DNA from: Methylophaga sp. | GTDB lineage: Bacteria; Pseudomonadota; Gammaproteobacteria; Nitrosococcales; Methylophagaceae | Direction: 5' to 3' | Assembly (NCBI GenBank): GCA_011053005.1 | Contig: DRHW01000012.1 | Location: 1 to 64,000 of the forward strand | DNA: 64,000 nt | In this document: in pieces, positions 37,792 to 40,985 of the stretch | How the letters are laid out: every line of letters begins with the position of its first letter | How positions within the stretch are numbered: position 1 is the stretch's first letter | Made by a program: the position numbers and the translations under genes | The notes under the pieces: model-generated | What the model saw: the letters and a program-made list of their open reading frames with translations, nothing else | Told to the model about the DNA's origin: nothing | The model's database searches: none

Positions 37792-37858
37792 TTTAATTTC
37801 CTTAAGAATTGAATTTATATTTGCTGAGGTACAGTTGGCACCGTTCTCAACAGTGCGA

Positions 37859-39112
37859 TTACATATGCTTGATTACTGACTCTGCGTAATCACTACTACT
37901 TAGGGCTGGAACACCAACCATCTCAGCCAAGTCACAGGTAACCTGACTATTCATAATTGCACCTGCAACACCCGCGACAACTAAATCGGCTGCTTCAAGC
38001 CAGCCAAGATGACGTAGTAACATTTCGGCTGATAAGATTAATGATGATGGATTTGCCATATTTTTACCCGCTAATGCAGGCGCTGTACCATGAGTCGCTT
38101 CAAAGATTGCAATTGAATCAGATAAGTTTGCTCCGGGAGCAATACCAATGCCGCCGACTTGAGCTGCTAAGGCATCAGAGATGTAATCACCATTTAGATT
38201 TAATGTTGCGACCACATCATAAGCAGAGGGGTGTAACAAAATTTCTTGTAAAAAGGCATCAGCAATACAGTCTTTAATGACGATTTCTTTACCAGTATTT
38301 GGATTTTTGAATGATTTCCACTCGCCGCCATTCAAAGGGATTGCACCAAACTCTTTTGCTGCAAGTTCATAACCCCATAGTTTGAAACCACCTTCAGTGA
38401 ATTTCATAATATTGCCTTTGTGGACAATTGTCACAGAATCACGGTCGTTATCAATGGCATATTGAATCGCTTTACGCACTAAACGCTCTGTTCCTTCGCG
38501 AGAAACAGGCTTGATGCCGATACCTGATGTTTCAGGGAAACGGATTTTAGTCACACCCATTTCTTCTTGTAAAAATTTGATCACTTTTTGAGCTTCAGCG
38601 CTTTCTGCCGCCCATTCAATACCGGCATAAATATCTTCTGAATTTTCACGGAAGATAACCATATCGATCTTTTCAGGTGCTTTAACAGGACTAGGTGTTC
38701 CCGGATAATAACGAACAGGACGTTGGCAAAGATATAAATCAAGTGTTTGACGCATCGTTACATTTAATGAACGCATACCGCCGCCCACAGGAGTCATCAA
38801 AGGACCTTTTATCGAAACAACATAGTCTTTTAAAGCCTGCATCGTTTCTTCTGGCAAATACTGATTATCGCCGTAGACTTCAGTCGCTTTTTCACCCGCA
38901 TATACTTCCATCCATGCGATTTTACGCTCACCGCTATACGCTTTTTCAACAGCAGCATCGATAACAGATATCATCGCTGGTGTAATATCAACACCAATGC
39001 CATCACCTTGAATAAATGGAATAATCGGTTGATTCGGTACAGTTAAAGAATAATCGTTATTGACACTAATAACGCTGCCATTCTGTGGTAAATGGATGTG
39101 TTCGAAAGCCAT
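37859..39112 (-). CDS. icd: NADP-dependent isocitrate dehydrogenase
   Basis: 417 residues, close to the E. coli type. Visible: [20 protein letters not shown], the substrate loop [20 protein letters not shown] with the phosphorylatable serine and binding arginines, [34 protein letters not shown] with the catalytic lysine, and [20 protein letters not shown] with metal-binding aspartates. It oxidises isocitrate to 2-oxoglutarate. Upstream region to 39313 is shared with the divergent DUF692 gene. Confidence 0.97.
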
Positions 39113-39313
39113 TCAGTGAGGCTCCTGATAATTAAAAGCGATATTTTAGCACTAAGTACGCTTCCAACCAAAAAAATGACTATTTACGTTAAAAACAAAT
39201 GTACACGTTCACCTCACATCAATGACAAGATAAAGATCTCAACCTAAATCAACATGTAACATTTAGGCTTATCATTCGTCATAATGATAGAACATGAAAT
39301 CGGGAGATATTTA

Positions 39314-40162
39314 ATGAATACAGCCTCATGCCCAATAACTGGTGCAGGTTTAGGTTTACGCAGAAGCTTTATGAATGAGCTGGATGCACTTGACCATAAC
39401 CCTGCTGACTTCCTTGAAGTCGCACCTGAAAACTGGATGGAAATGGGCGGCGCATTAGGCAAGAAATTTACACATTTTGCCGACCGTTATCCGATGATCT
39501 GTCATGGCCTATCATTATCTATCGGTAGTCCTGCGCCGTTGGATGAAGACTTTCTGATCCGTTTGAAAAAGTTCTTCGATAAACACAATATCCGATCTTA
39601 TAGCGAACATCTCAGTTATTGCAGTGATGATGGTCATCTTTATGATTTGATGCCTATTCCCTTCACTCCAGAAGCGGTTGACCATGTTGCCAAACGTATT
39701 CAACGGGTTCAAGAGATTTTGGAGCGACCACTGATCATTGAAAACGTCTCTTATTATGCAGCTCCAGGTCAGGAAATGTCGGAAATTGACTTTTTAAATG
39801 GTGTGCTCGAACAGGCCGATTGTGACTTATTACTCGATGTTAATAATATTTATGTTAATAGCATTAATCATGGTTATGACGCGGCAAATTATATTAAATC
39901 GATAAACAGTGATCGCATTGCATACTTACATATTGCAGGCCATTACGATGAAGCTGATGATCTAAAAGTCGATACCCACGGCGCCGATATTATCGATCCG
40001 GTTTGGAAATTATTAGAACTCACTTATCAACATCATGGCGTATTGCCGACATTATTAGAACGTGACTTTAATATTCCATCGCTTGACACACTTATTACCG
40101 AGGTCGATAAAATTCGTCATTATCAGTCGATTCAGGAACATGCTCATGTCGCAACAGCCTAA
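39314..40162 (+). CDS. bufB: DUF692 multinuclear non-heme iron oxidase (BufB/MbnB-like)
   Basis: 282 residues from the ATG at 39314, which has GGGAGA at a proper distance; the ATG at 39284 lacks a ribosome binding site. TIM-barrel family with metal ligands in YPMICHGLSLSIGSPAPLDE, SYSEHLSYC, PLIIENVSYYA, DLLLDVNNIYVNSINHG, IAYLHIAGHYD, KVDTHGA and LLERDFNIPS. These enzymes modify cysteines of partner peptides (methanobactin, bufferins) with DUF2063-type partners. The partner gene follows with overlap. No precursor peptide of the bufferin type is visible next to it, so the substrate is unknown. Confidence 0.9.
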   Translation: MNTASCPITGAGLGLRRSFMNELDALDHNPADFLEVAPENWMEMGGALGKKFTHFADRYPMICHGLSLSIGSPAPLDEDFLIRLKKFFDKHNIRSYSEHLSYCSDDGHLYDLMPIPFTPEAVDHVAKRIQRVQEILERPLIIENVSYYAAPGQEMSEIDFLNGVLEQADCDLLLDVNNIYVNSINHGYDAANYIKSINSDRIAYLHIAGHYDEADDLKVDTHGADIIDPVWKLLELTYQHHGVLPTLLERDFNIPSLDTLITEVDKIRHYQSIQEHAHVATA

Positions 40163-40907
40163 AAAACCAAGCTTTATTGATACTCAATATCAGTTTGCGG
40201 CTTTCCTGCGTGATCCTGATAATCAGCCGATGCCAGACAATATAGAACCTAGGCGCATGGCGATTTACCGTGAACTGTTTTATAACAATATCGAAGGGTT
40301 TATCGCCAACGGCTTTCCTGTTCTGAGAGAAATTTTCTCAGATAAAGCGTGGCATGACATGATCCGTGACTTCATGATAAAACATCATTGCAAAACACCC
40401 GTTTTCCATGAGATCGCTCGCGAGTTTTTAGCCTATCTCGAAGATGAACGTGACAATGCAAATGATCCGATTTTTATTCAAGAACTAGCTCATTATGAAT
40501 GGGTAGAATTAGCATTAAGCGTATTAGATGAGGTTGAAAACGAAGTAACAATCAATCCAGACAATTTGTGCTTGAACGCCCATTTTAAGACCGCATCTTT
40601 AGCTTGGCCCTTAGTTTACAATTATCCCGTACACAAGATTGGCCCTGATTTTCAACCTAATGAAAGAAGTAACAGTCCGGTTCATCTGCTTGTGTATCGT
40701 AGCAAAACAGACAGCATTAGATTTTTAGAGTTAAACCCCGTGAGTGCTCGTCTTATCGACTTACTTAATGAGAGATTAACCGGCCAAATAGCCGCTGAAC
40801 AAATTGCAACTGAACTTCAACACTCCAATCCACAAGTGGTCATTGATGGCGCACAAGCATTGATTAATGACTGGTTGCAACGGGGAATATTACTGGCAAC
40901 CTCATAA
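40146..40907 (+). CDS. bufC: DUF2063 partner protein of the DUF692 oxidase (BufC-like)
   Basis: 253 residues from the ATG at 40146 (AGGAA eight bases ahead; 40140 is equally close); the frame upstream to 40062 lies wholly within the DUF692 gene. N-terminal DUF2063 domain: QYQFAAFLRDPDNQPMPDNI, RRMAIYRELFYNNIEGFIAN, GFPVLREIFSDKAWHDMIRD. The rest has LAHYEWVELALSVLDEV and a C-terminal winged-helix-like PVSARLIDLLNERLTGQIAA. It probably binds the peptide substrate and presents it to the oxidase. Overlaps bufB by 17 bases. Confidence 0.88.
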   Translation: MSQQPKKPSFIDTQYQFAAFLRDPDNQPMPDNIEPRRMAIYRELFYNNIEGFIANGFPVLREIFSDKAWHDMIRDFMIKHHCKTPVFHEIAREFLAYLEDERDNANDPIFIQELAHYEWVELALSVLDEVENEVTINPDNLCLNAHFKTASLAWPLVYNYPVHKIGPDFQPNERSNSPVHLLVYRSKTDSIRFLELNPVSARLIDLLNERLTGQIAAEQIATELQHSNPQVVIDGAQALINDWLQRGILLATS

Positions 40908-40944: not shown

Positions 40945-40985
40945 CAAAAAAGGGACAGAAAACGTGTGTTTGCTGTCCCTTTTCA
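40945..40985. terminator. Bidirectional terminator between bufC and eda
   Basis: AAAAAAGGGACAG and CTGTCCCTTTT form an 11-bp stem with a 13-base loop. It has A-tract on one side and T-tract on the other, so it can serve both convergent units. Confidence 0.85.

Follow-up and report, generated by a model that had tools for sequence, protein, structure and literature searches.

A putative HvfBC peptide-maturation pair in Methylophaga, unlinked from its likely HvfA precursor across the Methylophagaceae

The nearest described relatives of the genes analyzed here belong to the HvfABCX oxazolin system of Haemophilus influenzae, described in the accessible part of PMC13419390, and to the captophorins, fontiphorin and gonophorin. 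In its accessible sections, PMC13097082 covers thiooxazole chemistry and copper binding, with an absorbance near 305 nm given for 5-thiooxazoles; an arginine pair and a phenylalanine are said there to mark the MNIO enzymes that act on Lys-Cys (EGKCG) precursors, and an aspartate next to the phenylalanine is the proposed base. A survey that began from genes adjoining MNIO genes (PMC12452194, accessible portion) recorded bufferin and Buf_EGKCG precursor genes located away from MNIO genes and suggested modification in trans. About 4,000 MNIOs of its largest cluster had none of the four known precursor types alongside, and hundreds of these were preceded by another small Cys-containing ORF.

According to the available text of Kohler et al. 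(PMC3511200), Caulobacter sigmaF acts through GTAACC-N16-CGAA and controls two DUF2282-DUF692-DUF2063 operons and a YedY gene. The available text of Nasreen et al. (PMC7907618) reports that H. influenzae RpoE2 controls msrAB and a four-gene DoxX cluster, and that the anti-sigma restraining it, of 67 aa, has a zinc-binding motif. By our own reading, this four-gene cluster is the hvf operon.

We analyzed a 64,000-nucleotide stretch of a Methylophaga genome, referred to as the window, and compared it with the rest of that genome (G000, 2.89 Mb) and with its relatives. The window encodes an enzyme pair, hvfBC, that from its sequence is very probably the cytoplasmic maturation half of an oxazolin/captophorin-type pathway, with the precursor half at an unlinked and probably co-regulated locus. 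Our literature search, mostly outside subscription papers, returned no description of such a split in the Methylophagaceae.

The hvfBC pair in the window

The features of the locus are as follows.

39255..39280, plus strand: ECF-type promoter-like site, TGTAAC (39255-39260), 16 bp, CGTC (39277-39280)
39302..39306, plus strand: GGGAG, probable ribosome-binding site preceding the ATG at 39314
39314..40162, plus strand: hvfB, MNIO (DUF692) peptide maturase of 282 aa, assigned from profile matches
40140 or 40146..40907, plus strand: hvfC, DUF2063/NGO1945-type partner
40948..40983, plus strand: hairpin with 11-bp arms ending in T4, probable terminator

HvfB scores 441.6 bits against NF003818 (curated NCBIfam cut-off 360) and 353 bits against PF05114 (DUF692), and falls under the cut-offs of the BufB model (275, cut-off 310) and of MbnB (44.6, cut-off 325). 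Among solved structures its best match is 3bww. HvfC reaches 304 bits against NF050145 (curated cut-off 142), which identifies it as the RRE partner, and also matches PF09836 and PF22106; it is a DUF2063 protein with an NGO1945 C-terminal domain. Both candidate starts of hvfC lie inside hvfB, so the overlap of partner and oxidase genes noticed in the sequence-only reading is real. Each protein is the only match of its kind in G000. A comparison with PHROGs gave no match. Translation of hvfB is unlikely to begin at the upstream ATG 39284, since this lies four bases past the promoter-like site, and most of the relatives displayed start at the equivalent of 39314, after GGGAG.

Eight residues of HvfB (H64, H99, E143, D175, H206, D220, H222 and E249) are invariant in 81/81 aligned rows. 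We take them to be the metal ligands by analogy with MbnB, and to that extent the metal-ligand segments reported in the sequence-only reading are indeed present. R17, D251 and F252 also occur in all 81 rows and R16 in 79 of them, in an alignment whose rows include no bufferin-type enzymes for contrast. HvfB carries the Arg-Arg and Asp-Phe signature of Lys-Cys MNIOs (R16-R17 and D251-F252), with its residues equated with FonB R15, R16, D249 and F250 by motif rather than by alignment. The accessible text of PMC13097082 is inconsistent on which group conserves the second arginine.

The sequence-only reading had found no precursor gene beside the pair, and a scan of the gaps and the window for ORFs and KCG motifs bears this out. 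Between 37116 and 41002 there are four intergenic gaps, and just one ORF of at least 25 aa with at least two cysteines lies mostly inside any of them; it encodes 26 aa (37809-37889), and its gap is not adjacent to hvfBC. No frame in the 64-kb window contains more than one KCG between stops. The earlier statement that the gap 39113-39313 leaves no room is right in that no ORF there has two or more cysteines, but the gap is not empty, as it holds the promoter-like site. Similarly, a terminator had been placed at 40945, and a hairpin exists, but at 40948-40983. The precursor types named at that stage, bufferin-like DUF2282 and methanobactin, do not fit, and an EGKCG-type HvfA is likely instead. 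A DUF2282 precursor was rejected, as PF10048 has no match in the G000 genome at E values up to 1.

An HvfA locus on another contig

Searching the whole genome for an EGKCG-encoding DNA pattern gave two matches, both within one gene on contig C3.

L034 8226-8597 (G000:C3), minus strand: hvfA, 123 aa, signal-like N-terminus, six KCG motifs
L034 8975-9280 (G000:C3), minus strand: tandem HvfA paralogue without cysteine, signal and much of the leader kept

The HvfA leader, NPFGNTELSSGYMQLAE, is of the same kind as in HvfA proteins encoded beside hvfBC elsewhere. HvfA scores 54.5 bits against NF050137, the HvfA-family repeat model (cut-off 19.5), and 26.6 against the narrower equivalog NF050188, under its cut-off of 95. 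With the signal-like N-terminus read from its sequence, it appears to be an EGKCG-repeat precursor with a Sec signal. On the 3′ side of hvfA lies hvfX (NF050144, 214.6 bits, cut-off 80), the single HvfX match in G000, followed by genes for MsrP (463 bits, cut-off 207) and MsrQ (187, cut-off 130). Upstream and divergent is an ECF sigma gene (TIGR02937, 78, cut-off 42.9), and next after it a gene for a 79-aa zf-HC2 protein (35.9, cut-off 22.2) that is likely an anti-sigma. By sequence, this is the RpoE2/SigE-like order of an ECF sigma gene followed by a zinc-finger-type anti-sigma gene. NrsF was also considered as the anti-sigma and rejected, having no match in G000, where the zf-HC2 gene is present instead; NrsF occurs in 7/59 relatives, all seven within the Methylophagaceae. 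The Cys-less paralogue has an acidic core with ATEHQ-type repeats, and its −35 element is GGTTAC. The first hvfA copy in G001 resembles it, with two cysteines and GGTAAC as the −35.

Precursor, MNIO and partner do not form one cluster in G000. hvfB starts at position 39314 of contig C12 (122,394 bp) and hvfA lies at about 52,250 of C3 (112,462 bp), so that, assuming a correct assembly, a minimum of about 90 kb separates the two loci. The proposed genome search for a Cys-rich secreted peptide did give a candidate, of the HvfA family rather than DUF2282. Of the two options offered in the sequence-only reading, action on a peptide encoded elsewhere gains a candidate, the predicted secreted Cys-repeat precursor with hvfX beside it on C3; an unknown substrate is not needed, as a fitting precursor is present in the same genome.

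Conservation of the split and of a shared promoter-like site

HvfC exceeds the cut-off in 34 of 36 Methylophagaceae genomes, G000 included; the exceptions are G016 (67% complete) and G029. For HvfA the count is 29 of the 36, with 27 detected by the model and two more, G012 and G018, by protein search. In every one of the 29 genomes with both genes, hvfA and hvfBC are separate: on different contigs in 27, and about 600 and 520 kb apart on a shared contig in G034 and G035. Among the seven genomes without HvfA, three (G002, G009, G019) have the neighboring genes at a contig end, two (G016 and the 100% complete G029) lack HvfC as well, and for the last two completeness is 84% (G022) and 69% (G026). 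Some contigs end at hvfA or close beside it (G002 C95, G009 C36, G019 C87, G004 C63/C53), perhaps through its repeats, and counts of hvfA from draft genomes may therefore be too low. When only family genomes at least 90% complete with HvfC are considered, HvfA is present in 22/22. A second MNIO match at another place occurs in 13/36 family genomes.

Outside the order, hvfA and HvfC lie within about 2 kb of each other in 6/6 genomes with matches to both families (G043, G049, G050, G051, G052, G055). Within the order, about 61 kb separate HvfC of G039 from an HvfA-like gene (43% identity), which is one gene away from what is, by eye, a relative of a small gene neighboring the family hvfA locus. 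We take this small gene to be the one named DUF1244. Because the genes of G039 are also unlinked, the split may be older than the family. The comparison of relatives proposed earlier, for a lost precursor, accordingly points to no recent loss, the split being common to 29/29 family genomes with both parts.

The gap upstream of hvfB contains TGTAACA-N15-NGTC, and TGTAAC-N16-CGTC occurs once in the 64-kb window against 0.04 expected from shuffles. In a sample of 80 public HvfB loci, which overlaps the genome panel and so does not give independent counts, 34/34 loci of the window's clade (35/35 with the window) have TGTAAC-N16-NGTC 55-70 bp ahead of the hvfB match, as do 0/46 others; distances are counted from where the tblastn alignment begins, several residues into the protein in L125 and L137. 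The family name Methylophagaceae follows the names in matching public records, several of which NCBI places under Piscirickettsiaceae. The chance of a site is about 0.003 per locus, an overestimate, as the background rate (39 matches over all 80 loci) counts the 34 hvfB sites themselves. In the HvfB tree, a branch supported at 100/100 divides the 35 site-bearing rows from all the others. The aligned site profile was built from pattern matches, so its pattern letters are invariant by construction; the clade counts and a 6-mer test serve as controls. In the latter, TGTAAC is the sole 6-mer found in all 35 hvfB upstream regions, and the best 6-mer of a control region reaches 13/31.

No EGKCG gene lies near hvfB in the 34 site-bearing loci, within stretches of up to 4 kb (several of these contigs are shorter), and 39 of the 46 site-less loci have one nearby; among the other seven, L146 contains masked bases immediately before the gene. 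With its end lengthened to NGTCTA, the site is also found 84-106 bp before hvfA in 27/28 family loci and also in G018, giving 28/29. In G012 TGTAAC is kept and the −10 part is altered. Counting all 31 hvfA copies, four are without the full site: that of G012, the degenerate first copies of G000 and G001, and the second tandem gene of G007. Where hvfA adjoins hvfBC, even a looser GTAAC-type pattern precedes it in only 1/39 loci, and in G039 the site occurs at neither the hvfA nor the hvfC locus. These sequence patterns suggest that the hvfBC and hvfA loci are probably switched on together, and that the unlinked HvfA, tied to the window pair by the shared ECF-type site, is its likely substrate.

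A wider regulon was considered and rejected: the loose pattern is not enriched in G000 (10 matches, against 20 for the reversed control), which also counts against the sigma link. An exact-spacing match before a FAD oxidoreductase gene on C16 is attributed to chance, with the full site in 0/11 relatives (12 loci taken, L258 cut, 11 upstream regions readable). Another exact-spacing match falls inside the coding sequence of the sigma gene.

A full sigma gene followed by a zf-HC2-type gene occurs in 26/26 loci, counted with the pattern H-x3-C-x2-C (H or Y permitted; H in the proteins displayed). This count excludes the edge pieces L213 and L188 as well as G004, G012 and G018, whose sigma gene is a fragment, disrupted or missing. 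The sigma gene, hvfA, hvfX, msrP and msrQ are all unbroken in 25/29 family loci. The four incomplete loci are G005, cut by a contig end; G012, broken; G004, with a sigma fragment and a contig break; and G018, without sigma and hvfX. The hvfA-adjacent sigma gene is thus a fragment, frameshifted or absent in 3/29 genomes with hvfA, although G004 and G018 retain the site before hvfA, and G018 also before hvfB. Elsewhere in G012 and G018 only 27%-identical sigma paralogues were found, so another sigma factor may read the site, or the loss of sigma may be recent. hvfX is broken in G012 and absent in G018; hvfA, hvfBC, msrP and msrQ persist in all three. The sigma gene is not plainly autoregulated, because no TGTAAC faces it in 30/31 hvfA upstream regions.

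A five-member HvfB clade (L132, L135, L149, L150, L173; support 99/94) likewise has no EGKCG gene within up to 4 kb. Its members have GGCCGGTCT in common upstream of hvfB, with TGTAAT or TGAAAT about 17 bp before it (by eye, without a control); in three of these loci TGTAAT overlaps a stop codon. This clade is possibly a second, independent split. We tentatively raise the idea, somewhat against the odds, that loci of this kind have come apart more than once, with only an ECF promoter in common to link their parts. In that case promoters, rather than neighborhood, could serve to match many orphan MNIO-partner pairs to their precursors, and the split would part cytoplasmic modification from a periplasmic module of peptide, HvfX and MsrPQ.

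Proposed pathway and comparison with known systems

Pairing HvfBC with the unlinked HvfA has to be weighed against other readings. HvfBC could act on a different, unrecognized peptide, with the C3 HvfA served by another enzyme or left unmodified. In its favor, unlinked genes point to the pairing only indirectly and HvfA is under the cut-off of NF050188, but we consider this improbable given the single MNIO match in G000, the 22/22 co-occurrence of HvfC and HvfA, the site common to both loci and HvfB residues of the EGKCG type. That the enzymes are relics of a pair whose neighboring precursor was lost is very improbable: no precursor adjoins them, and the small genomes G012 and G018 have a partner locus that is partly disrupted or lost, but HvfB and HvfC are intact with their invariant residues, the site is kept in 35/35 clade members and a precursor exists elsewhere. 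A precursor hidden in the gap 39113-39313 can practically be dismissed, since the 51-aa ORF that exists at 39092-39247 has one cysteine and no KCG and begins inside the divergent gene at 37859-39112 (presumably isocitrate dehydrogenase, by eye), and TGTAAC alone of the upstream 6-mers is kept in all 35 relatives.

We therefore favor HvfBC as the maturation half for the unlinked HvfA, and propose its working by analogy with the relatives, from which function, chemistry and regulation are drawn. The other half would comprise hvfA, hvfX (DoxX) and msrPQ (methionine-sulfoxide repair), beside the ECF sigma and zf-HC2 anti-sigma genes. Thiol, oxidant or copper stress would disarm the zinc-finger anti-sigma, and the released sigma factor would read TGTAACA-N15-NGTC at both loci. 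HvfC may bind the NPFxxxELSSGYMQLAE-type region of HvfA, and HvfB would oxidize the cysteines of the E[AG]KCG repeats to 5-thiooxazoles, as in HvfA and FonA. The peptide, exported by Sec, would buffer periplasmic copper together with HvfX, and MsrPQ would repair oxidized methionines.

A whole family keeps the parts separate, with a common promoter-like site indicating the pairing. Such a site suggests a practical route to the substrates of orphan RiPP enzymes, and with cultured Methylophaga modification in trans can be tested directly.

Compared with HvfABCX of H. influenzae and the captophorins, the Methylophaga system has the same components: HvfB, HvfC, HvfX and an EGKCG-type HvfA with a signal peptide. 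In those systems hvfA, hvfB, hvfC and hvfX form one operon, whereas here hvfBC is unlinked from hvfA-hvfX, which precede msrPQ beside the sigma gene. The H. influenzae arrangement also resembles the one proposed here in placing a DoxX cluster and methionine-sulfoxide repair under one ECF sigma with a small zinc-type anti-sigma. The cases in PMC12452194 resemble ours in having precursor and MNIO at separate loci, but a family-wide fixed split and a common promoter are not described in its accessible portion. The Caulobacter sigmaF/NrsF regulon resembles the proposed arrangement in that one ECF sigma, acting at a GTAAC-type −35, governs an MsrP-type gene as well as MNIO operons at separate places. 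It differs in that each operon there has its own DUF2282 gene (bufferins), a type absent here, its anti-sigma is NrsF, without a match in G000, and its −10 is CGAA rather than NGTC. The Methylophagaceae would join Caulobacter and Haemophilus/Neisseria as a lineage whose copper-peptide genes and methionine repair appear to be under one ECF sigma.
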